From the IMG/VR virus record IMGVR_UViG_3300031918_000136, positions 1-25,535 of that record: DNA of 25,535 nucleotides. The stretch is one strand, 5' to 3'. Source of the stretch: a virus. Each line of letters starts with the position of its first letter. The first letter of the stretch is position 1. Of the stretch, positions 963-14,741 are shown piece after piece. A model generated the notes under the pieces. That model ran no database searches and had not been told where the DNA came from. It saw only the letters and a list, made by a program, of their open reading frames with translations. A program made the position numbers and the translations under genes.

Positions 963-1754
963 CTACGGGTAATAGTCCGTGGCGCTCCACTGGTACGTCA
1001 CGCCGCCCCACACCCCGTCATCCCATTGGAGCGACGGCGGCCACCCCCACATCTTCCCCGAGTAGATGAGTTTCACCCACTCAAAGGTCACCTTGGCCGG
1101 CTTCCATTTCTGGACGGTCCCGATGATGTTGTTGATCTCGTTCGTCGAGGGGGCGGAGACGGTGGACGGCGGCACGGCGGGAGCATTCCAGTTCGTCGGG
1201 ACGTTGGGAAACAAGAGCCCCGCGCGCGACCAAAAACCCTCGGACGGGGGAAGCCCGCTATTGTCGTCGAATGACCAGCCCGGTTCTCCGCGCACGGGCA
1301 TCAGCGCGGTCCGCACAAGCCGCGTCTCGGGAGCGACGGGAGGGATCGTCGGATCAATCGCGGTGAGGGACCACGCATAGCCGGCCTGCTGGATGATGTG
1401 GGGATCGCCGTTGTTCTGATCGTACCCCTGTGTTTCGAGCGCGAGGAGGATGCCGAGCGGAGTCCCGGCCCATGGCCACAGATCCCACGCGAGCCGCAGC
1501 CGGTTTCCGTAGTGCGCGGCTGTCTCTCCGGGTCCGCGAGGCATGCCCATCTCGCCACCGAGATAGCCAAGCGCCAACTCATCGCCGTTGGCGCCGGCAA
1601 TCGATGGAAACGCCGCCTTGGTTCCGTCCTTGTACCACGTCACGCATTGATCGAGCGTGGCCCCGATGGCGCCAAGGTACCGGACGCCGTTCGGCTGTTG
1701 TAGCCACGTCGGGCCAGCGGTGGCGAGATACGACTGGTACCCGCCCGCGATCAC
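963..1754 (-). CDS. Baseplate/tail protein, Mu gp48 / P2 gpI-like
   Basis: A 263-residue protein. I take GTG 1754 as the start because it overlaps the stop of the J-like gene in a GTGA junction; the frame stays open further upstream, but that sequence lies inside the J gene. The N-terminus (YLGAIGATLDQCVTWYKDG, about 26-44) and the segment at about 69-103, with GMPRGPGE, YGNRLRLAW and WPWAGTPLGIL, resemble tail proteins of the Mu gp48 / P2 gpI group, which sit between the J wedge protein and the tail fibre and help attach fibres to the baseplate. Position agrees: it follows baseplate J and precedes the fibre. The C-terminal 150 residues are tryptophan- and proline-rich with no motif I recognise. 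Family assignment is by pattern and order only. Confidence 0.72.
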   Translation of the reverse strand: MIAGGYQSYLATAGPTWLQQPNGVRYLGAIGATLDQCVTWYKDGTKAAFPSIAGANGDELALGYLGGEMGMPRGPGETAAHYGNRLRLAWDLWPWAGTPLGILLALETQGYDQNNGDPHIIQQAGYAWSLTAIDPTIPPVAPETRLVRTALMPVRGEPGWSFDDNSGLPPSEGFWSRAGLLFPNVPTNWNAPAVPPSTVSAPSTNEINNIIGTVQKWKPAKVTFEWVKLIYSGKMWGWPPSLQWDDGVWGGVTYQWSATDYYP

Positions 1755-3193
1755 GGAACCACCGTCCACGTGAGAGACGATGCGAGCGTACTTGTGGCCG
1801 ATGCGATCTGGTTCGAGGCGAGCGCGATGTTCACCACGGCGCCATTGACCAAGAGGCCCGTGCAGTCGATGATCCCCACCACGTCCATGAGGGTCTGAAG
1901 CACCTCCGCCCACCGCACCGTATCGGCGATTCGATAGCCGGACATCAGCACCTCGTACGCCTGCTGTGCGTCCGTCTGTGCCTGCGCCAGCGTGGACAGG
2001 GACAGTTTCACCGTGACCGTGGCGCCCGTGAGCGAGATTCCAAGCGCGGACGCGAGGGACACCACGGGGAGGTCAGACACCGGAGTACGCGGCTCAATGT
2101 AGTTCTCGACCACCGTCTTCTCCGCATTGGTCACTACGGCACCGTCACCGGCAATGACAATGTTCACCGTGGCCGCCGTGGCGGGATCCGCCGACACCTT
2201 CACCTGACGCACGTTCGGCGATGCAGTGAGCGCCCACAGCGCGTACTTGTCTTGGGTGGGGACATCGGCGAGCGATGGCCACCGCGCCTTGTCCCGGATG
2301 CGCAATTCGGTGTCCGACTCTTCGTCCGCGCCCGTGGTCGTGTACCAGACATCGGGCGTCGTGAAGGCGAAGCGGTCGCCGGCCACAAACGACGGCGTGA
2401 CCGTGGCGTTGTTGGTCCACACCAGGGTGAGACCGGTCCCGTCCACGTTGTTGACGGTGCCGCCAATGGGCGATGTGTGGTTCGCTCCGAAGGTCGCCCC
2501 GCCGTTGTTCGATAGCTGGTACTGCGCCGTCCCTCGCTGACCCGAGAGTGTGATCAGCACGATCCACGTTGCTGCCGCGACGGTGCCCGACGGGGCGATC
2601 GTGCCCTGCGACGTGCCATCGACCACCACGGCAGAGAACGCCGCTGCGGGATTGGTGCACGTCACGCCTGGGAGCGGGGTTGCGATCGTGGTGATGGTGT
2701 CGGCGGGGACGTTGTAGGCCGCGCCGGGCGACTCGGCGGTGATGGTGATGCGGTTGGCGTTGGTGCCGTTTTGCGCCGTGTTGATCGTTGGGCTTGCCCC
2801 GGTTGGTCCGGTGAATCGCTTGCCCGACGCGGAGAGGAATTGCATCGTGCCAGCGGTGAGCGGGTATGGCCCTGCGCCTGCCGCGACGGTCAATTGCAGG
2901 TAGCCGACGGTGGTGACGGCCTCGGTGCGGTCGAGGTTGTAACGCTCGTGTGAGTTGAGCGTGAGCCATGTCCCGGTCGCCGTATCGACGAAGCCTCCAC
3001 CGACGATGACGGGGCGGACGGAGGTGACCAGATCATTGACCACCTGCGCGACCATTTCCATGATCTGAAGTTCGGGCGATCCCGGCTCCCAGTCGGTCGT
3101 AGCGAGCCCGAGCGTTTGCGCCTGCCCGATGAGCAGCGCGAGCACGTCATTCTCTGTGGTGGTCGCGAGTAGGTCGGTGAGCGAAGTAGCCAT
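1751..3193 (-). CDS. Baseplate J-like wedge protein (Mu gp47-like) with inserted beta module
   Basis: A 480-residue protein; ATG 3193 overlaps the stop of the gp25-like gene by one base (TGATG), and the frame continues upstream only as a shadow. Baseplate J features are clear: WEPGSPELQIMEMVAQVVND near 35-54, SPGAAYNVPADTITTI near 155-170, a PLPGVTCTNPAAA segment near 173-185 and EESDTELRIRDKARW near 291-305. In ordinary J proteins the NPxAa segment runs almost straight into the ESDxELRxR segment. Here about 100 residues intervene, including a beta-rich module (about 207-282) that also occurs twice in the tail sheath. The protein should form the baseplate wedge around the hub with the gp25-like partner. 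It is coupled by overlap to both neighbours. Confidence 0.9.
   Translation of the reverse strand: MATSLTDLLATTTENDVLALLIGQAQTLGLATTDWEPGSPELQIMEMVAQVVNDLVTSVRPVIVGGGFVDTATGTWLTLNSHERYNLDRTEAVTTVGYLQLTVAAGAGPYPLTAGTMQFLSASGKRFTGPTGASPTINTAQNGTNANRITITAESPGAAYNVPADTITTIATPLPGVTCTNPAAAFSAVVVDGTSQGTIAPSGTVAAATWIVLITLSGQRGTAQYQLSNNGGATFGANHTSPIGGTVNNVDGTGLTLVWTNNATVTPSFVAGDRFAFTTPDVWYTTTGADEESDTELRIRDKARWPSLADVPTQDKYALWALTASPNVRQVKVSADPATAATVNIVIAGDGAVVTNAEKTVVENYIEPRTPVSDLPVVSLASALGISLTGATVTVKLSLSTLAQAQTDAQQAYEVLMSGYRIADTVRWAEVLQTLMDVVGIIDCTGLLVNGAVVNIALASNQIASATSTLASSLTWTVVP
2348..2575 (-). repeat. Beta module copy 3, inserted in baseplate J-like protein
   Basis: Residues about 207-282 of the J-like protein carry the pattern hydrophobic strand (IVLITLSGQRG), GTAQYQLSNNGG, a GLTLVWTNNATV strand and a closing FVAGDRFAFTT strand. 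The same order (V-I-x-x-T-x-G, ATAxFxY, short loop, LxFxxG, GDxWxF) is found twice in the tail sheath protein. It lies between the two halves of the J core. Boundaries are approximate and similarity was judged by eye. Confidence 0.5.
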
Positions 3194-3585
3194 CAGGGAG
3201 ACTCCACGATTGCGACGGTGATCTCGCTCACGGCGAGCACGAGCGAAAAAGGACCATCGGCCGTCGACAGATCGAAGCGCGCCGTCAGGACGGAAGTGAT
3301 CGTCGAGAACATGAAGGTGCACACGCACCGCTCGATGCGTTCGTCCTTTTCCACCTCGCGCGCGAACTGCTGTTCCGCCGTGCGAAGGGCAAGCGCTGTG
3401 ATGGACTCACCGAGGAGATCGCGAATGTCTAAGCCGTAGTCGGGATGGCGCGCGAGGGATCCACGTGGCGTCGAGACGCGCCGATAGACCGCGTTCGAGA
3501 GGTTGCGCAATCCCGTCGCGTAGGACCACCGCCCCGACGGAAGGTCAGTCGATAGGTTCACTCCCTGACCGTAATCGGTAGCCAT
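3193..3585 (-). CDS. Baseplate wedge protein, T4 gp25 / P2 gpW-like (Mu gp46 position)
   Basis: A 130-residue protein with ATG 3585 overlapping the preceding stop by one base. The segment TPRGSLARHPDYGLDIRDLL (about 39-58) is the hallmark of the gp25/gpW family: a conserved glycine-rich turn, then a DYG before the helical region. The middle (about 60-85) is helical (ALRTAEQQFAREVEKDERIERC) and the C-terminus a beta sheet with the ending SEITVAIVESP. Family size is usually 100-140 residues. The protein starts sheath polymerisation by bridging wedge and sheath in contractile tails. Its place just before the J-like gene is the standard pairing. Confidence 0.88.
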   Translation of the reverse strand: MATDYGQGVNLSTDLPSGRWSYATGLRNLSNAVYRRVSTPRGSLARHPDYGLDIRDLLGESITALALRTAEQQFAREVEKDERIERCVCTFMFSTITSVLTARFDLSTADGPFSLVLAVSEITVAIVESP

Positions 3586-4115
3586 CAGGTCGCCACGCTG
3601 GCGAGGATCCAGAAATCAACGGATCCCGTGGTGGCTGCGTTGAGGTTCGCGCCCGTGCAGATCGCCTCCGCTCGGATGGAGGCGTTCGTCGACTGGCTCT
3701 CCCCTCCGACCAATGACGAGAGTTGATACACGGTGCCTCCTACGGCCTGGAACACGTCAAATGCGGTGGCGTACTTCGTCAGGGTGCCGGTGATGCCCAC
3801 GCTCACCGTGTACGTAGCGATGGCGCCGCCCGAGAAGGCTACCGAGTGCTTCGTCTTGACCATGTGAATCACGCCACCCGCCGGCAGCGTGTAGATCACG
3901 ATGTTGCGATTGGGCGCCGCGGTGGAGAAATCGGCGTACGTCTTGGTGATCTTCTTCCACGTGGGCGATGACGTGGTGACACCCGACGCGCCGGGGTCGA
4001 TTATGGGAAGAGCGATGGCCTGCCAGCACTTGAGCGCGATGGCTTGGTCGCTCGCCGACAGCGCCGTAATGGCCGCGTCCATCGCCGTACCGAGTGCATC
4101 GGATTGAGTCGACAT
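3585..4115 (-). CDS. Unknown virion-associated protein between spike and gp25 genes
   Basis: A 176-residue protein with ATG 4115 overlapping the spike gene's stop by one base. The first 35 residues are helical (DALGTAMDAAITALSASDQ); the rest is beta-rich and small-residue-rich, with strands such as NIVIYTLPAGGVIHMVK near 70-86, and ends SVDFWILASVAT. No catalytic motif or membrane segment is evident. It lies in the middle of the baseplate operon, in a slot where Mu has no extra gene, so a small baseplate ornament or a part of the spike/fibre apparatus is a reasonable guess. I do not recognise the family. Confidence 0.78.
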   Translation of the reverse strand: MSTQSDALGTAMDAAITALSASDQAIALKCWQAIALPIIDPGASGVTTSSPTWKKITKTYADFSTAAPNRNIVIYTLPAGGVIHMVKTKHSVAFSGGAIATYTVSVGITGTLTKYATAFDVFQAVGGTVYQLSSLVGGESQSTNASIRAEAICTGANLNAATTGSVDFWILASVAT

Positions 4116-4705
4116 CAGCCGTTCTTTCCGAGTGAACTATCGTACGTTCCATTCCCGAGCGCCGTGCGAAAGTTGGAGATGGCGATCTGAATCGCGGCAA
4201 GCGCGACGAGTTGCTGAGCGACCGGCGATCCCGAGGTTCCACTTGCAAGCCCCGTCGAGATCGAGAGCAGGCAAGACGATAGCGCGGCCTCGAACGTATC
4301 GAACTTCGGCAGCGGGTGGTCGGTGCCGTTGATGGCCACGTAGGACGACGCGCCGATGTTGGTGATGGTGACCACCGCTCCCTGTTCCCAATCGGCGATG
4401 TAGGGGCGATCGGGATCGCCTTGCTCAAAGCCCACCATGCAGCGCGCCGTGTTCTTGACTTCGACGGTGACGCCGGGGACACCGAGACGGATTGACACCT
4501 TCGACGGCGACGGCATGCGGCGCGGATTGCCGTCGGTGTCGAGATCGAGAAGAACGTCGATCGTGGACAGGTCGCCAGACTGCGCCACCACGCGGCCGGG
4601 ATAGCGCGCGAGGTAGTCGACCGGACCGGCGACGCGGTACCCGAAGATAGACCGGATCGCGTCGATGAACGCCGCGAACGGGCGCGCGATGACGGGGGCA
4701 CTCAT
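4115..4705 (-). CDS. Baseplate spike / assembly protein, gpV-like (Mu gp45 position)
   Basis: A 196-residue protein. ATG 4705 overlaps the previous stop in an ATGA junction; the frame extends upstream to 4891 but only as a shadow of the hub-like gene. After an N-terminal segment (FAAFIDAIRSIFGYRVAGPVD) it shows an OB-fold-like run: YPGRVVAQSGDLSTIDVLLD near 35-54, VSIRLGVPGVTVEV near 72-85 and CMVGFEQGDPDRPYIADW near 90-107. The GFxxGDPxRPYI signature is typical of phage baseplate spike/gpV proteins. The C-terminal third is small-residue-rich and probably fibrous or helical. The protein should form the trimeric needle tip under the hub, and its order after the hub-like gene agrees. Confidence 0.82.
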   Translation of the reverse strand: MSAPVIARPFAAFIDAIRSIFGYRVAGPVDYLARYPGRVVAQSGDLSTIDVLLDLDTDGNPRRMPSPSKVSIRLGVPGVTVEVKNTARCMVGFEQGDPDRPYIADWEQGAVVTITNIGASSYVAINGTDHPLPKFDTFEAALSSCLLSISTGLASGTSGSPVAQQLVALAAIQIAISNFRTALGNGTYDSSLGKNG

Positions 4706-5361
4706 GCCGCCTCCAGCCAACACACTTCGCGGATGCGCGACTCTTCCACGATGGACTCGACGCGCGAGATACGGCGCCCGTCGATCACGGTGCCCGGTAG
4801 CAGGTTGCCCGGCGCGGTCACGCCGTAGGTCACGCGGTCCTCGGTGGGCGTCTCGTCGATCAAGACGCGCTCCGGGTCGGTGGTGGGCCATTCTTCGGAG
4901 CCGAAAAAGATCGTGCCGTCATCGAGCACGCGCCAGACCGCTCCAGCGTAGCCCGAGAGCATCGAGAGCGACGCGCCTACGTCTATCGCCCCGACGGACC
5001 AGAAGTCCAACTGCGTCGAAAGCACGGCGCTTGTAGACGTGCTCGACAGGGACTCGCCACCCGCGGCCAAGATGTCGGCGAGCACGGTGCGAACTTGGAT
5101 CGTCCGGTAGAAGCGGGCGCGCGAGGTGGCATGCAGGCCCCCAGCGCCGCCAACGATGCGGCAGTGGAACGTGTCGAGGAAGACGCGCGAGCGGCTGGCC
5201 ACCACGAAGCCCGCCATGGTTGGTCCGTCGTCGATCACGATCGACGCGGCGCCCGTGACGGCATCGCTCGACGCCACCACGAAGTCACCCCACCATGCCC
5301 CGACGCGAGGGCGCACGAGGCGACAAGAGACGACGGGTTGAGCGTTGATGGTGACAGGCAT
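4702..5361 (-). CDS. Probable baseplate hub protein (Mu gp44/P position)
   Basis: A 219-residue protein with ATG 5361 directly abutting the stop of the previous gene. Mostly beta: PVTINAQPVVSCRLVRPRVGAWWGD at the start resembles the first strands of gp27-type hub proteins, followed by a central AVLADILAAGGE-like helix (near 93-103) and a C-terminal WRVLDDGTIFFGSEEW strand pair. Hub proteins of Mu and P2 phages are usually longer (350-400 residues), so this is a compact version, or the hub role is shared with the 197-residue upstream protein. Assignment rests on order (tape measure, inner tail protein, this gene, spike) and on fold impression; no decisive motif. Confidence 0.7.
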   Translation of the reverse strand: MPVTINAQPVVSCRLVRPRVGAWWGDFVVASSDAVTGAASIVIDDGPTMAGFVVASRSRVFLDTFHCRIVGGAGGLHATSRARFYRTIQVRTVLADILAAGGESLSSTSTSAVLSTQLDFWSVGAIDVGASLSMLSGYAGAVWRVLDDGTIFFGSEEWPTTDPERVLIDETPTEDRVTYGVTAPGNLLPGTVIDGRRISRVESIVEESRIREVCWLEAA

Positions 5362-5955
5362 CTAGGGGGCCGTGAATCCGAATTGCTCCGAGGGGAGCGG
5401 CTGTACGGAATTGAGCGGGCCAAGTACCGTCGCGCCATCGGCTGCAACCTGTGGCTTCTTGAACTCCTCGCGCACGGCCACGCTGCCAGCTGGCCGCTTC
5501 GTCGCGGACTTCTTTCCGGTCGCGACGAACTCCAACCACTTCACTTTCATAATCCCGATCTGCCCGATGATCTGCGGCCCGACAACGGACTGACAGATCG
5601 CCGAACGAATCCCCGCGTTGGCGAGGTAGGGATGCGCGATGTCAACGGCCTTGACCAAGCCTGCGCCGGCCTTGGGCCAGAATGCATCTTGGATCCCCTG
5701 CCATTGATCCCACTGCGGCGCGGTCCATATCTTCGTCGTCGTCTCGAATGTGACCGGCTTGCGGCCATGCAGCACGGGAGCACCGCCCGACTTGCCCGCG
5801 GGCGATTGCTTGTCGGCTTTGCGCTCGGGCGCACCGCTGCATTCCGTGAGGCCGGCGACGCCCACGCCCTCGACGAACAGAATATCCCACGCCGTCGAGG
5901 CGTAGAGTTCGCCGTCCTGCCCGCCGTCGGGAAGCCAGAAAGGGATTCCGCCCAT
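5362..5955 (-). CDS. Tail protein after the tape measure (Mu gp43/N position), unknown fold
   Basis: A 197-residue protein; ATG 5955 overlaps the tape measure stop (TAATG). The first 50 residues (GGIPFWLPDGGQDGELYASTAWDILFVEG) are beta-rich; residues about 70-150 contain tryptophans (TKIWTAPQWDQWQGIQDAFWP) and a hydrophobic IIGQIGIMKVKWLEF strand; the C-terminus is lysine- and proline-containing and probably extended. By position it corresponds to the Mu gp43-type protein that joins tape measure, tube and hub, but I see no signature to prove that. It could also be a tail-tip adaptor. Confidence 0.72.
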   Translation of the reverse strand: MGGIPFWLPDGGQDGELYASTAWDILFVEGVGVAGLTECSGAPERKADKQSPAGKSGGAPVLHGRKPVTFETTTKIWTAPQWDQWQGIQDAFWPKAGAGLVKAVDIAHPYLANAGIRSAICQSVVGPQIIGQIGIMKVKWLEFVATGKKSATKRPAGSVAVREEFKKPQVAADGATVLGPLNSVQPLPSEQFGFTAP

Positions 5956-7559
5956 TACGCGGCCTCCGTGGCGAACTGCTCCATGGCGCTGTAGACGGCT
6001 TCGCGGATGTCTTCCTTCGACATGCCGCCGTTACCCTCTCCGACAGCGCCGTTGATGTTCACCTCGACGCTGTAAGACGCGGAGCCACGTCCGCCTCCCT
6101 GCCCCGCTCCGTCGTTCCCATAGGCCGCCGAGAGCATGTCGCCGCGATTGCCCCGCGCGCCGATCACGGTGTCGGACGGGTCGAACTTGATCGCCTCCCC
6201 GCCGCGCCACATGAAGTCGTGAGCTTGGGGGAGCGAGGAGTCGGCCGCGCCAAGTAGCCCCGCCTGTGCTGCGGCTCCCGCCGTGGTTCCGTTGCCCTCT
6301 GCGATCGATCGGTAGGCCATGCGCAGGAACGGCACGTGGTAGATTGCGCCCTCGATGCCGCCCGCGTCCTTCTTCGATTGGTTGAAGTCGTCATTCTTGG
6401 CGATGGTTCCGATCGCGTGGGCTACCGCCTCGATCGCCTTGGCCGTCGCACTCACGACCACAAGGAAGTCATGGAAGGCCGCCTGCACCGCTGGAATCGA
6501 ATCGCGGATGTAGTCGAGCGCGTCTTTGATCTTCGTCTGGAACTTCCCGATCCCGTCCGGTCCGCTGAGATCGCCGAATAGCGTCTTGAGCGTGTCGCCG
6601 AAGATGGCATCGAGGGAATCAATGATCGACTTGCCGAATTCGCTCGACGGGTCCATTGACGTGAGGATATTCGACAGGAACGACTTGAACTGGCCGATTG
6701 CCTTCCCGTCGGCGAGCCCTTCAAAGAGGTTGTCTTTGATCTGGCCGACCTTGTGCATCAGCGAGTCAAGTGACTGCGACGACTTCACGGCACCATCTCC
6801 GATCAGTCCGCCCTTTCTTGTCGTCGCACGCTGCAAGGCATTTATCAGGATGGTCGGGTCAACGCCGCCCTCCGTGGCCTTTTTTTGGGCTTCCTTGGCG
6901 CTTATCCCGAGGTCTCTCCCCAAGTCCTCAAAGAACGGCTTGAACTTGATGCTCAGTCCACGAAGCGAGCGCGGGTTTAGCATGCCAGAGAGATTGATCT
7001 TCTCAAGGACATCGGTCGATGCAAGGGCCGCACCGATCCCGCCGCCTGCCCTATTGGCAAGGTCGGCAATGAACGGGAGTGTATCTGGTATTTGCTCTGC
7101 TGCGTATCCAGCTCTGCCCAACTCAGCAGTGATCATGCGAAGTTCGCTATCGTCGAATTCCGTGAACTTCTGCACCTTCTCCAGATGTTCTAGGAGATCG
7201 CTTCCCTCGGACTCTCCGAATAACAATTTGATCGAATCGGCGCTACGCTCGGCACCGGCTGCCGCGTGGATGGCTTCCTTGCCCACGTCGAGGAAGGTGT
7301 CAACCAATCGCTCGCCGATTTCAAATCCGCGGTGCGCGATCTCGGCCCACTCAAACAGACGATGGCGAAATGACTCCGACTCCTTGCCCGCGCTGCCTTG
7401 CGCCTTGCCGAGATTGTCGGTGGCCTTCTCTAGTTTGTCGGTCGCGTCCGTGGCCGCATCGGTGGCCAGAGTCTCGCCCTTCAGGCTCTTGGCCATCTTG
7501 TCGGCTGGCCCAGAGAGTTTGTCGAACAGCTTGAATACCCATTCCAGGGGCGATGCCAT
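5955..7559 (-). CDS. Tail tape measure protein
   Basis: A 534-residue protein. ATG 7559 is preceded by AGGAGGTGA, a strong ribosome site that overlaps the end of the chaperone frameshift frame. N-terminus (about 1-60) is a lysine/alanine-rich helix with KLEKATDNLGKAQG typical of tape measures; residues 60-350 are helical; a hydrophobic stretch near 363-388 (FLVVVSATAKAIEAVAHAIGTIA) is the usual membrane-like segment; the tail ends in a SYSVEVNINGAVGEG-type strand and a final helix, also common in this family. The length sets tail length, and 534 residues suggests a short contractile tail. The gene follows the frameshifted chaperone and precedes baseplate genes. An A-rich run within codons 225-227 and a stretch with lower GC (about 6780-7330) are discussed as findings. 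Confidence 0.9.
   Translation of the reverse strand: MASPLEWVFKLFDKLSGPADKMAKSLKGETLATDAATDATDKLEKATDNLGKAQGSAGKESESFRHRLFEWAEIAHRGFEIGERLVDTFLDVGKEAIHAAAGAERSADSIKLLFGESEGSDLLEHLEKVQKFTEFDDSELRMITAELGRAGYAAEQIPDTLPFIADLANRAGGGIGAALASTDVLEKINLSGMLNPRSLRGLSIKFKPFFEDLGRDLGISAKEAQKKATEGGVDPTILINALQRATTRKGGLIGDGAVKSSQSLDSLMHKVGQIKDNLFEGLADGKAIGQFKSFLSNILTSMDPSSEFGKSIIDSLDAIFGDTLKTLFGDLSGPDGIGKFQTKIKDALDYIRDSIPAVQAAFHDFLVVVSATAKAIEAVAHAIGTIAKNDDFNQSKKDAGGIEGAIYHVPFLRMAYRSIAEGNGTTAGAAAQAGLLGAADSSLPQAHDFMWRGGEAIKFDPSDTVIGARGNRGDMLSAAYGNDGAGQGGGRGSASYSVEVNINGAVGEGNGGMSKEDIREAVYSAMEQFATEAA
6879..6885 (-). other. In-phase A AAA AAG slippery heptamer inside the tape measure gene
   Basis: Codons 225-227 of the tape measure read CAA AAA AAG, so the heptamer A AAA AAG lies in the phase needed for -1 slippage. 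A shift would add seven codons and end at TGA (6859-6861), giving a truncated protein of about 234 residues. Seven A residues in a row also make this a place where sequencing or polymerase slippage could occur. Biological use is unproven. Confidence 0.3.
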
Positions 7560-7562
7560 CGG

Positions 7563-7739
7563 TCACCTCCTAGAGCGGATTACACGCGCGGCTACTTCGG
7601 CAAGCAGGAGCGCGCCCACTTGCTCATCTTCGTCATTCCCACCGCGTAGCACTGCGCGGATTGCGACCGCTGCCCCGTCGAGCCGGTAATTGCTCTTGCG
7701 AGTCAACTGCGCGGCGATCTCGGCGTAGCGGTCTACAAC
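7563..7739 (-). CDS. Frameshift-only C-terminal extension of the tail assembly chaperone
   Basis: This -1 frame encodes 58 residues after the slip site (VVDRYAEIAAQLTRKS then LDGAAVAIRAVLRGG and ending VIRSRR) with no plausible start of its own. It opens exactly where the chaperone's zero frame stops (TAG 7733-7735) and closes just before the tape measure. Composition is coding-like: helical, charged, no stops. The layout is that of the lambda G/GT and Mu gp41 chaperone pairs, where a few percent of ribosomes make a longer protein that binds the tape measure. The longer product would be about 168 residues from ATG 8068, or 223 from ATG 8233. The extension's stop codon lies in the ribosome site of the tape measure gene. 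Confidence 0.75.
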   Translation of the reverse strand, partial: VVDRYAEIAAQLTRKSNYRLDGAAVAIRAVLRGGNDEDEQVGALLLAEVAARVIRSRR

Positions 7740-8233
7740 TTTTTTGAGGCGATGGACTCCTGGATCCCAGCGAACTCGGCGAGCTTGTTGCCCCACGTCT
7801 CGACGCGCGCCGGCATCCGATCGACGATGGCCTTGAGCCCCGCCGCCTCGGGGTGCACGGTGCACACCTTCACCAGCCACCACGTCGCATCCATGGCCTT
7901 CGCCTTGTTCTCGTCGCGCGCCATGGCTTTGAACGTCTTCCACTCGGCCAGTGACGGGGTGCGCACGATGATCGCATCTTCGGCGTCGTCTTCACCGAGT
8001 TGGTGAAGGTCGCAGCCGGGGTGCTTTGACTTGAGGGAGAGGATCAGGGATTCGTCGATGATCGACATGGGGCCGTGCTCCTTGAGGGAGAGCAGGAGAT
8101 CGCGCGCTCGCGTGATTGCCAGTGCGGACTCGTGCGGGTTCGTGCTGCCGGCCAGCGCCCGCAAGCGCTGGAGTCGTCTACGCCACCGCTCGGACGGGCG
8201 CGGCGTGAGACACCGCACCGCGAGGTGGCGCAT
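7733..8233 (-). CDS. Tail assembly chaperone (zero frame), with possible DUF2786-like N-terminus
   Basis: Between the tail tube and tape measure genes, the place of the frameshifting tail chaperone in nearly all long-tailed phages. The frame from ATG 8233 gives 166 residues; this start lies 2 bases after the tube stop, matching the tight packing elsewhere. An internal ATG at 8068 (MSIIDESLILSLKSKH) has AAGGAG 9 bases upstream and would give 111 residues. The downstream part (LAEWKTFKAMARDENKAKAM, then a WWLVKVCTVHP segment) suits a chaperone. The upstream 55 residues read as coding, with LQRLRALAGSTNPHESALAI (about 21-40) resembling the DUF2786 motif. The start is therefore uncertain: either a fused protein, two nested products, or only the shorter form. 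The frame ends at TAG one codon after the slippery heptamer. Confidence 0.75.
   Translation of the reverse strand: MRHLAVRCLTPRPSERWRRRLQRLRALAGSTNPHESALAITRARDLLLSLKEHGPMSIIDESLILSLKSKHPGCDLHQLGEDDAEDAIIVRTPSLAEWKTFKAMARDENKAKAMDATWWLVKVCTVHPEAAGLKAIVDRMPARVETWGNKLAEFAGIQESIASKKL
7739..7745 (-). other. Programmed -1 frameshift site A AAA AAG
   Basis: The zero frame reads TCA AAA AAG TTG TAG, so A AAA AAG is exactly in the X XXY YYZ phase, the most slippery bacterial heptamer known (as in E. coli dnaX). A -1 slip joins the zero frame to the 58-residue extension (7563-7739). The stop codon one codon further would favour pausing. I did not identify a confident downstream stem. Confidence 0.8.
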
Positions 8234-8235
8234 TG

Positions 8236-8694
8236 CTAGATGGTCGGGGCGTCGTTGATGATGGCCACCTGCGCGGAGCCGCGGAGGATGGGCTTCATCA
8301 GGAAGAGATCGAACTTGCACTTGCTGGCGTCGCTGCCGCCGCCGGGGGAATCGGCCGCCTTCATGAAGCGCACGGCTGGGAGCGTGTGAAGTACAACGCT
8401 GTCCATTTCCTCGTACTTCACTTGCACGGAGAAGGTGACCAGCCCCCATGAGTCGCCGAGATTCTGGATCAGGGTGTTGGCGTCGTTCTCGGTGAACTCC
8501 AGCGAGGCCGAGCCGTCCCACTCGCCGCGCGTTGAGCCGGCCGGGATCGCGCTGCCGGACTTCTTGACGCGACCGGGGGTAAGGCTGTCCTCGTAGTCGA
8601 TCGCAGTGGGGTAGTAGTCATCCCCGTCGATCGTGGCGGTGATCGACGCGAACGACTTTTCGACGCCGTTGACGTAGGGGTATCCGCTGGCCAT
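8236..8694 (-). CDS. Tail tube protein (Mu gp40/M position)
   Basis: A 152-residue protein between the sheath and chaperone genes. It is beta-rich, starting with GYPYVNGVEKSFASITATIDGDDY, and contains SASLEFTENDANTLIQNLGDSWG near 62-84 and VTFSVQVKYEE near 86-96, then a closing strand CKFDLFLMKPIL near 125-136. Alternating strands with an alpha helix between are as expected of the tube fold that stacks in hexameric rings inside the sheath. ATG 8694 begins 11 bases after the sheath stop. Assignment is from order, size and strand pattern. Confidence 0.85.
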   Translation of the reverse strand: MASGYPYVNGVEKSFASITATIDGDDYYPTAIDYEDSLTPGRVKKSGSAIPAGSTRGEWDGSASLEFTENDANTLIQNLGDSWGLVTFSVQVKYEEMDSVVLHTLPAVRFMKAADSPGGGSDASKCKFDLFLMKPILRGSAQVAIINDAPTI

Positions 8695-8705
8695 GGTCGT
8701 CGCTC

Positions 8706-10487
8706 CTACGCTGCCGCCGTGGTGGCCGCAGTCTCGATGGAATAGCCGATGGTGACGGCGATGGTGTCGAGCGTCCCGAGCGGGATGATCTTCACGCTGA
8801 TATTGATGGTCGAATCGGCCGCGATGTTGTGCGTCCGGTCCACGGTGACGTACTGACCCGAGGCACTACGCGAGGCGTCGCCCGCGTCGATGATGGACGC
8901 GACCACCTTGCTATTGATGTTCGACTCGATGACTTGCGCGGCGCCCTCCTGAATCGTGCCGTTGGAGTTGAGCGGCACCGACTCGCCGATCAGGTCACCG
9001 GCCGCGGCGACCACCACGCGGCAGGTTTCATCCATCACGCGGCGGTGCATGAAGTTGGAGAAGTCGCTGGTGTTGTCCGCCAGCGTGCGCCCGCGGGTGA
9101 TGTAGTACCCGCCCTTGCCCGGCACGGTGCGAAGCGTGATGAGGCGCGCGGCGTCGAGTGCCTGCGTGCTGTTCTCGTTCCGGTAGAGCTTCACGACGAA
9201 CGGCAGAGCGCCGTCAAGCACGCGCTGGAGGTTGTGCGAGATACCCACGGCGCCGGCACGCGCGGACGCCAGCCACGCGGCAGGACGCCGGCAGAGGCGC
9301 CCGTTGATGGGCGACGAGATGAGCGCGTCGCCCGCGCCCGTGCACGTGCGCAGGTAGGTGGTCGACACAAACGCGGCAGCGACCACGGAATCGGTGTCGG
9401 CCGTGTCGGCGATGGGTAGGCCACCCGAGAGGATGCGCGAGCCGACCGTCGGGGTATCGGTCATCCACCAGATGAACTTCTTCGCCGCAAGCGCCGTGGT
9501 CATGTTGCCGTCCACGGTGGTCGCCATGGTAGCCCCGCCGCTCGACGACACGGGCATGGCCGCAAGGTGCCCGCCGCCGTAGTCCGTCGAGAGCGCGAGC
9601 AGTGCCGTGAATGCCGCCGTCACATTGCCCGTGCTGAAGCCCGAGGCGATCGACGTGAAGGTGAAGTAGTCGCCGCTGGTGTAGCTCGAATTGACGAAGA
9701 TCAGATAGATCCCCGTGTTCGGGAGCGCGTACTTGTAGGGCGATCCGGGGATGACGATCGACGAACTCCAGTTGCTCAGGTCGGTGCCGTCGTCGGCGTA
9801 GAAGTTGTCCGTGGCGAACTTGAACGTCCCGGTTGCCGGCGCCCCCGTCGCGGTGCACTGGACTCGCACGGTGTAGTCATCGAACGGCTGCGAGGTCTGC
9901 GAGGAAATCGCGCCCGTCTTGCTGCCACTGGTGACCGTGTGGGTGATGACGCCGATATTGGAGATCGTCCACGTGTCGGTCGCGTCGAATCCGTTGCCAG
10001 CGGTGAAGATCAGCGTGGTCAGCGTGCCGGGAATCAGCCAGCCCGTCGAGGTGTACGCGGCAGCCGAGAGCACGGGCGAGGACACCGAGCCGCTGCCGAT
10101 CTGATAGGTGAACGCCGCCGTTGCGAGCGCGCCCGTGGTGGTACAGACGATCGTGATGGTCGATGCCGGCGCCATCGCGACGGTCATCGTACCCGCGCCG
10201 CTCGCGACGGTGGTCACGGCGGAGAGCGCGCCGTCATAGGTGGGCGTCGGCATCATGAAGTAGTGCGGACCGCCGCCGTTGGCCACCTTGAGCGCCAGCG
10301 CTTCGACGCCGGGGCCGTAGCCGAGATCCGTCGAGAGTTGGGTGAGGTTGCCCTGATACCCGCCGTACAGGGTATTCGGGACGGCCTTCGACGACATGCC
10401 GAAGGTGATCGTCGAGTTGCCGACCGACGGCGTGACGATGCCGATCTGCCCGTCGAGGATGGAAACGGAAGCGCCTGGGATCGCCAT
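8706..10487 (-). CDS. Contractile tail sheath protein (DUF2586-like, Mu L position)
   Basis: A 593-residue protein; ATG 10487 has AGG about 8 bases upstream. The C-terminal half carries sheath features: NGRLCRRPAAWLASARAG near 395-412, DGALPFVVKLYRNENSTQAL near 425-444, LRTVPGKGGYYITRGRTLA near 452-470 and a TINISVKIIPLGTLDTI strand near 560-576 of the type that knits sheath subunits together. The N-terminal half contains two copies of a beta-rich module (about 108-180 and 203-282) placed before the conserved core; a third copy is inserted in the baseplate J protein. Sheath contraction drives the tube through the envelope. Most sheaths of this family are shorter, consistent with insertion of the modules as surface domains. 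Confidence 0.9.
   Translation of the reverse strand: MAIPGASVSILDGQIGIVTPSVGNSTITFGMSSKAVPNTLYGGYQGNLTQLSTDLGYGPGVEALALKVANGGGPHYFMMPTPTYDGALSAVTTVASGAGTMTVAMAPASTITIVCTTTGALATAAFTYQIGSGSVSSPVLSAAAYTSTGWLIPGTLTTLIFTAGNGFDATDTWTISNIGVITHTVTSGSKTGAISSQTSQPFDDYTVRVQCTATGAPATGTFKFATDNFYADDGTDLSNWSSSIVIPGSPYKYALPNTGIYLIFVNSSYTSGDYFTFTSIASGFSTGNVTAAFTALLALSTDYGGGHLAAMPVSSSGGATMATTVDGNMTTALAAKKFIWWMTDTPTVGSRILSGGLPIADTADTDSVVAAAFVSTTYLRTCTGAGDALISSPINGRLCRRPAAWLASARAGAVGISHNLQRVLDGALPFVVKLYRNENSTQALDAARLITLRTVPGKGGYYITRGRTLADNTSDFSNFMHRRVMDETCRVVVAAAGDLIGESVPLNSNGTIQEGAAQVIESNINSKVVASIIDAGDASRSASGQYVTVDRTHNIAADSTINISVKIIPLGTLDTIAVTIGYSIETAATTAAA
9642..9881 (-). repeat. Beta module copy 2 in tail sheath
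   Basis: Sheath residues about 203-282: strand YTVRVQCTATGAPATGTFKF, loop with DDGTDLSNWSS, strand IVIPGSPYKYALPNTGIYLI and closing YTSGDYFTFTSI. Same order of elements as copy 1 and as the insert in the J protein. Limits are approximate. Confidence 0.6.
9948..10166 (-). repeat. Beta module copy 1 in tail sheath
   Basis: Sheath residues about 108-180: strand ITIVCTTTGALATAAFTYQI, a GSGSVSS loop, strand TLTTLIFTAGNGFDATDTW, ending ISNIG. The strand order V-I-x-C-T-x-T-G-A-x-A-T-x-x-F-x-Y recurs in copy 2. Limits are approximate. Confidence 0.6.
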
Positions 10488-13886: not shown

Positions 13887-14741
13887 CTAGTTCGGCTGGA
13901 TCGCGAGGTACAGGTTGACCGCGCCCTCGACGAAGGTGGTCACACCCGAGCCGACGATCGTGATCTCCTGCGCGCTGGTGAACTGGTTGAGCGCAGTGAT
14001 GGCCGAAGCGGCGATGCCGGCACCGAGCGGGGTGCAGTTCGCCGAGGTGAGCGCGAGCGCGCCGCCCGTGGTGGCCACTGTGGCGATGGCCGGGGTGAGG
14101 GTCGCGAGCTTCGCGGCGGTGGTCGCGACGGTGGTCACGCTCGCGGCGAGCGAAACGATGCGCCCCTGGAAGCCGGGGGTGAAGCGCGCCACGACGCCCG
14201 CATTCGCGATCAGCGACAGGGTGACCGGCACGTTGACGATGGAGATCGGCTGCGCGGTGAGATCCGCACTGGATCCGGCGACCACGATGCCGGTCTGGAT
14301 GATCGCCTGGGTGCCGACCACGTTGATGAGTTTGCCGGCCGAGACGCGGGTGGCCGCGCCGTCGGTGAGGTTCACCGTATTGTCATCGCTGGCGTAGACG
14401 GTCGCGCCGATGTTGGCGATCGTCATCGCGTCGCCGCCCGCGCCCATGTTGAAGTTGAAGGCGCCCTGGTTCACCGAGACGAGGAAGGCATTCGCCGCGC
14501 CGCCGGTGTTGTCCGCGGTGCCCTGCCCGTAGAGGTTGGAGACGGGGCCACCCGAGACGCCGGTATAGACGCCGACGATCTTGATGCACGTCGCGGCGAG
14601 TGCGGCCGGGATGGCGTAGCCGCTGGAGTTGAGCCCGACGAGGGCGCCGGGGAAGATGACGGTGTTGGCAGCGATGCCGAACTGCGCGAGGCCAACGCCA
14701 TACTCGGTCGTCAGCGTGCGGGGGGCGGTGAGTGCACTCAT
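13887..14741 (-). CDS. Capsid decoration-like structural protein
   Basis: A 284-residue protein starting MSALTAPRTLTTEYGVG, with AAGGG upstream of the ATG. It is alanine-, glycine- and threonine-rich, mostly beta, for example FPGALVGLNSSGYAIPAAL near 30-48, KIVGVYTGVSGG near 54-65 and FLVSVNQGAFNFNMGAGGDA near 86-105; then a C-terminal part ending FVEGAVNLYLAIQPN. Position between protease/scaffold and capsid is where Mu-type phages place decoration or head-stabilising proteins. The first 120 residues resemble the small beta folds used by such proteins, and the C-terminal half may be an additional beta domain. No specific family recognised. It ends just before the terminator-like hairpin. Confidence 0.78.
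   Translation of the reverse strand: MSALTAPRTLTTEYGVGLAQFGIAANTVIFPGALVGLNSSGYAIPAALAATCIKIVGVYTGVSGGPVSNLYGQGTADNTGGAANAFLVSVNQGAFNFNMGAGGDAMTIANIGATVYASDDNTVNLTDGAATRVSAGKLINVVGTQAIIQTGIVVAGSSADLTAQPISIVNVPVTLSLIANAGVVARFTPGFQGRIVSLAASVTTVATTAAKLATLTPAIATVATTGGALALTSANCTPLGAGIAASAITALNQFTSAQEITIVGSGVTTFVEGAVNLYLAIQPN

Follow-up and report, generated by a model that had tools for sequence, protein, structure and literature searches.

A beta-sandwich module inserted in sheath, baseplate J and capsid proteins of contractile phages, and its probable flagellar kin

The immunoglobulin-like domains of phages are C-terminal additions produced by frameshift, whereas the insertions of the module described here are internal and in frame. 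Both are beta-sandwiches carried by unlike virion proteins, and the promiscuous Ig-like domains of Fraser et al. (2006), as they are cited in PMC9230969, are likewise proposed to be exterior and auxiliary. Extra beta domains that interrupt the sheath core in the same manner are found as the lateral domains of type 2/3 sheath proteins, and similar side domains in sheaths are placed away from the tube (PMC9230969); the module differs from the lateral domains in that one sequence family reaches baseplate J, the major capsid protein and flagellar proteins. The insertion domain of the Vibrio phage XM1 sheath has a DALI likeness to domain D3 of FliD, and gene exchange with the host was suggested (PMC10457771). 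Compared by description, it is likewise a sheath insert with a relative in the flagellar cap, but it represents a fold match in one phage, whereas the module shows profile-level kinship over many phages and several flagellar proteins. The side domain of the sheath of phage Adele, which combines a seven-stranded sandwich and a helix, resembles domains of capsid, nozzle, FliD and flagellin proteins (PMC12846349); the published case is one of structural likeness only, and the PDB example given for it, the Mu sheath 9khy, is absent among the 50 PDB matches listed for the module.

In flagella, the D2 domains of FlgK and FlgL are likewise beta-sandwiches inserted in a conserved core and exposed on an axial structure (PMC6155364; 4UT1), FlgL D2 being like that of FlgK (PMC6155364). 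The BNR/Asp-box repeat is a further point of comparison, as most modules share its hairpin, but with one box per module and no propeller. In the literature checked, promiscuous outer phage domains and the likeness of sheath domains to FliD are already published, mostly as fold likeness; no earlier description was found there of the present family, of its capsid and J insertions or of its flagellar link at the level of sequence.

Three copies of the module in a Mu-like phage fragment

The window, i.e. the whole stretch of DNA analysed, is a 25,535-base IMG/VR record that covers part of a Mu-like myophage genome; its minus strand encodes the virion proteins, namely terminase, portal, protease, major capsid protein, sheath, tape measure, J and further tail proteins. 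Two of these virion genes contain the module, a beta-sandwich of about 85 residues present in three copies (Table 1). The sheath belongs to the DUF2586 family by its Pfam and PHROG matches as well as by its sheath fold; its structure model matches the sheaths of T4, 812, KP1 and Mu, with a core that resembles known sheaths. The J protein has the Pfam core of Baseplate J, which the module interrupts. A 176-aa protein encoded at 3585-4115 (minus strand), between a GPW-like gene and the upstream tail gene, is without a PHROG match or a detectable module, and a likeness suspected between it and the C-terminus of the product of 13887-14741 was absent in BLAST.

Table 1. Module-bearing genes and module copies in the window; bit scores are those of the 74-sheath HMM described in the text.
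Feature	Position	Strand	Evidence and remarks
Baseplate J protein gene, one module inside	1751..3193	-	480 aa; PF04865 E 2.7e-17; phrog_6 baseplate wedge subunit E 9.8e-27
Module copy in baseplate J, site B, between NPAAA and ESDTELRIR of the J core	2354..2617	-	46.8 bits; site mapped with J core HMM
Tail sheath gene, DUF2586 family, two tandem modules inside	8706..10487	-	593 aa; PF10758 E 7.6e-21; phrog_907 tail sheath
Second sheath module copy, aligns with the single module of relatives	9645..9926	-	48.0 bits; sheath module alignment
First (extra) sheath module copy, placed in the tree with the first tandem copies from other phages	9954..10205	-	35.9 bits; module tree

The initial annotation of this DNA had described a recurrent module, twice in the sheath and once in J, where it was said to split two conserved elements of the J core; all the three copies were recovered close to the span it gave by HMMs free of window sequences, and the position in J was confirmed. 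The motifs it had proposed fit in part. T-x-G-A-x-A-T is found in the sheath copies (TTGALATAAF, TATGAPATGTF) and not in J, which reads TLSGQRGTAQY, while G-D-x-F-x-F is matched by J and sheath copy 2 but not by sheath copy 1, which reads TDTWTI. Among 99 modules, the only nearly invariant residues are two glycines; most modules have one S-x-D-G-G-x-T-W-like Asp-box hairpin, degraded in both sheath copies of the window.

Pairwise comparison gives marginal evidence for the relationship. In shuffle tests of pairwise alignments, the two sheath copies are related at P = 0.0015 and sheath copy 2 and J at P = 0.0025, whereas sheath copy 1 and J (P = 0.40) do not rise above the shuffles, and BLASTP of J against the sheath gave E 0.38 in the module region; the initial annotation thus saw something, namely the J copy, that BLAST would miss. 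Such scores would suit a chance likeness of low-complexity Thr/Ala/Gly-rich beta strands with no shared module at all, but this explanation is extremely improbable in view of the profile searches with the module alone. A small HMM trained on the sheath modules of only three relatives, namely Thermus phage Riverbug, Meiothermus phage MMP17 and Myxococcus phage Mx4, matched the sheath copies of the window with i-E values of 5e-7 and 2e-9 and its J protein with 1.7e-7; among 901 ORFs, the next one after the window copies and a copy in the Mx4 J protein stood at E = 0.9. A larger HMM, built from the sheath modules of 74 relatives and including no window sequence and no J protein, gave the scores listed in Table 1, and the J copy kept 30.2 bits with the Asp-box masked. 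No match to this HMM was obtained in the reversed window proteins, and no other window protein scored. Insertion exactly at the module boundaries and a confident fold, considered below, also speak against chance likeness.

Predicted fold and comparison with known domain families

The AlphaFold2 model of the window J module, computed with the 99 modules as input, is a confident beta-sandwich (pLDDT 93.5, pTM 0.84) made of strands only, save one short turn. Its best match among predicted viral proteins is a 472-residue entry (TM 0.87, 1.4 A), which its length suggests to be the MMP17 or MMP7 sheath. In the model of the full sheath (pLDDT 86.8), both module copies are predicted to match the J module in strand order, with similar spacing. 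The structural comparison proposed in the initial annotation therefore agrees with the profiles in placing one domain in two unlike contractile-tail proteins.

No PDB structure matches the J module at E <= 0.001. Among the 50 PDB matches listed, the sole one with TM above 0.5 is FlgK of Burkholderia pseudomallei (4UT1; TM 0.56, rmsd 3.6, probability 0.33), with an E of 3.7 that is not significant alone; the resemblance of FlgL D2 to FlgK D2 (PMC6155364) is consistent with this match. Designed Pizza propellers and sialidases, obtained as PDB sequence matches, were rejected as relatives, since only repeat or Asp-box stretches are involved and part of the module is covered. The BNR/Asp-box Pfam score is 15.1 bits against a cut-off of 27, and the fold is not a beta-propeller. 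Like the Ig-like domains, the module is an independent beta-sandwich occurring in several unrelated virion structural proteins; no Pfam match to the Ig family (I-set, BIG_2, FN3) above cut-off was found, nor a PDB match to it at E <= 0.001. Searches of Pfam and PHROGs revealed no family of the module's own, with one weak partial match to phrog_11830 (unknown function; E 9e-4).

Distribution, insertion sites and history of movement

Close relatives were not found when viral contigs were scanned with only the J protein or only the sheath of the window as query, and the entry point to the relatives was provided by the annotated phages Riverbug, MMP17 and Mx4, whose sheaths have one well conserved module each. 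Two viral-contig scans added 103 loci, some of which are overlapping stretches of one contig. A total of 158 module occurrences were identified in 108 loci, distributed over sheaths (122), J proteins (27), major capsid proteins (4) and other virion-region genes (5); the expectation that other virion proteins of related phages might carry the module was thus borne out, even for the major capsid protein. The mixed module alignments were too diverse for a pattern search, and tblastn with either of two module queries gave a match in 10 of the 50,697 annotated phage records.

The DUF2586 sheaths of the related loci carry one or two copies. Every sampled DUF2586 sheath has the module, but the sampling patterns lay partly inside it, and its dispensability in the sheath is read from the distant lotta8-2 sheath. 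A 670-aa sheath-like protein without a Pfam match (L140:76-2085) also carries the module, which may therefore occur outside the DUF2586 sheath family as well. Two Leptospira weilii plasmids (NZ_CP092208, NZ_CP092209), perhaps plasmid-like prophages, contain DUF2586 sheath genes that match the module weakly.

Insertion in J is confined to two sites of the J core model, A at about position 29 and B at about 177-180, the window copy being at the latter. The 60 J rows, which include fragments, comprise 43 without a module, 11 with it at site A, 4 with it at both sites and 2 with it at site B. The Mx4 J protein has a site-A copy, and those of Riverbug and MMP17 are module-free. On the best J tree, at least four changes are needed at site A and at least five at site B, one at each site being possibly accounted for by a fragment (L099). 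In a few loci (L028/L029/L030:18722-21649 and G004, the latter a 1061-aa frame) two complete J cores lie in tandem in one ORF, with a site-B module in each; judged by its sequence, this frame is a fused or duplicated baseplate wedge protein. Insertion in the capsid protein is clean, in that module-free relatives read ...SDRAPVITGTPTKYVTLFVLRGGLALWYN, and in module-bearing proteins SDR still precedes the module and TSLIVLPGALAFWYN still follows it; the four module-bearing capsid proteins match the major head families phrog_247 or phrog_544.

A tree of 113 modules, based on few columns and with many weak forks, clusters the copies by host protein and position (24 changes of label against a shuffle mean of 62), with the flagellar copies as one clade. 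The grouping of window sheath copy 1 with first tandem copies elsewhere indicates that the tandem is probably old. In one locus (L106), the capsid module and that of the adjoining gene are sisters (SH-aLRT 91), and these sequences likely reflect copying within one genome. Taken together, the clustering by host protein and the sister copies imply that movement between proteins is real and mostly ancient. The module-bearing genes of that locus (4679-5857, 5785-6546, 7628-8422 and 8438-9901) lie near one another in the virion region.

The module had also been suggested to be mobile or co-selected. Mobility holds to the extent that the module was gained or lost repeatedly at the fixed J sites, but only over deep time, most copies clustering by host protein and position. 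Co-selection fares less well: a J module is present in 11 of the 13 phages with tandem sheath modules against 5 of the 40 others (Fisher p 4e-6), an association which is strong when taken raw but inseparable from kinship, with too few independent pairs on the tree for a test.

Probable flagellar relatives and role

A scan of genome contigs yielded just two loci, which opened searches of whole phyla. In the phylum of a Myxococcales MAG, the phage profile matched in 27 of 284 genomes, the proteins being prophage sheaths, FliD (FliD_N + FliD_C) and one FlgL (Flagellin_N + Flagellin_C), and a profile of the flagellar modules, run on these genomes, added FlgK and further FlgL proteins. The flagellar profile was also applied to 300 genomes from the phylum to which a Firmicutes MAG belongs, where it reached DUF2586 sheaths (E 1e-9 to 1e-6). 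Two flagellins of this latter phylum (L193:700-2175 and L196:979-2520; Flagellin_N + Flagellin_C) match the module more weakly. The Myxococcota matches L144 (cadherin-like) and L145 involve the Asp-box only and were rejected as kin, and the solved D2 sequences of FlgK and FlgL gave no match with the module profiles.

The phage and flagellar modules could be non-homologous, with a convergent Asp-box hairpin placed on a generic beta-sandwich. Asp-box-only matches such as the two rejected above do occur, the flagellar modules carry a selection bias from having initially been picked out with the phage profile, and masking of the Asp-box cuts single flagellar modules to about 1-12 bits (at most 12.4 for FliD). 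The profiles, however, make this explanation unlikely: hhalign of the phage against the flagellar profile gave 98.6%, and still 97.3% with a score of 56 when the Asp-box columns were left out, whereas 200 column shuffles reached at most 7.8% and a score of 18. Moreover, the search works reciprocally, and FlgK has the top TM among the PDB matches listed. Sequence kinship with inserts of hook-associated proteins is indicated both by hhalign and by the reciprocal genome searches. On balance, it appears probable that bacterial flagella (cap, hook junction, filament) and contractile phage virions (sheath, baseplate, capsid) have exchanged members of one sequence-recognisable family that is absent from Pfam and PHROGs, so that unrelated kinds of extracellular machine would have an outer building block in common.

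The loop insertion in conserved cores, the absence from the J and capsid proteins of close relatives and the side-domain position in known sheaths (PMC9230969) suggest that the module is an accessory beta-sandwich, most likely a lateral knob outside large extracellular assemblies, to which we assign a probability of roughly 0.7. The module is a standing part of the DUF2586 sheath in this phage lineage, as one copy or two in tandem, has been gained or lost at the two fixed J sites and, in some relatives, occupies a capsid loop and other virion genes. The copies may each face outward from the core that contracts or forms the shell, and may stabilise the assembly through added bulk and lateral contacts, in the way that has been proposed for FlgL D2 at the hook-filament junction (PMC6155364). 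Since close relatives have J and capsid proteins without it, the module probably plays an auxiliary part outside the sheath.

A possible but more tentative alternative is that the module acts as an adhesin for glycans or surfaces, with numerous weakly binding copies on tail, baseplate and capsid that hold the virion on host or environmental polysaccharide. The high copy number per particle and the presence of the module in several exterior proteins would favour such a function, as would the weak binding of cell-surface carbohydrate proposed for Ig-like phage domains in the statement quoted in PMC9230969. However, the near-invariance of two glycines only argues against a conserved binding site, though not against weak adhesion; the degraded Asp-box of both window sheath copies also counts against adhesion, and searches of Pfam and the PDB matched no known carbohydrate-binding domain significantly.

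One profile traces the family from the sheath to baseplate, capsid and flagellar proteins, and module-free relatives serve as natural controls. The existence of J proteins with the module (Mx4) and without it (Riverbug, MMP17) in related cultivated phages makes the use of these domains for the virion testable. If the flagellar link is true, phage tails and flagella would share an outer part by descent and not by mere likeness.
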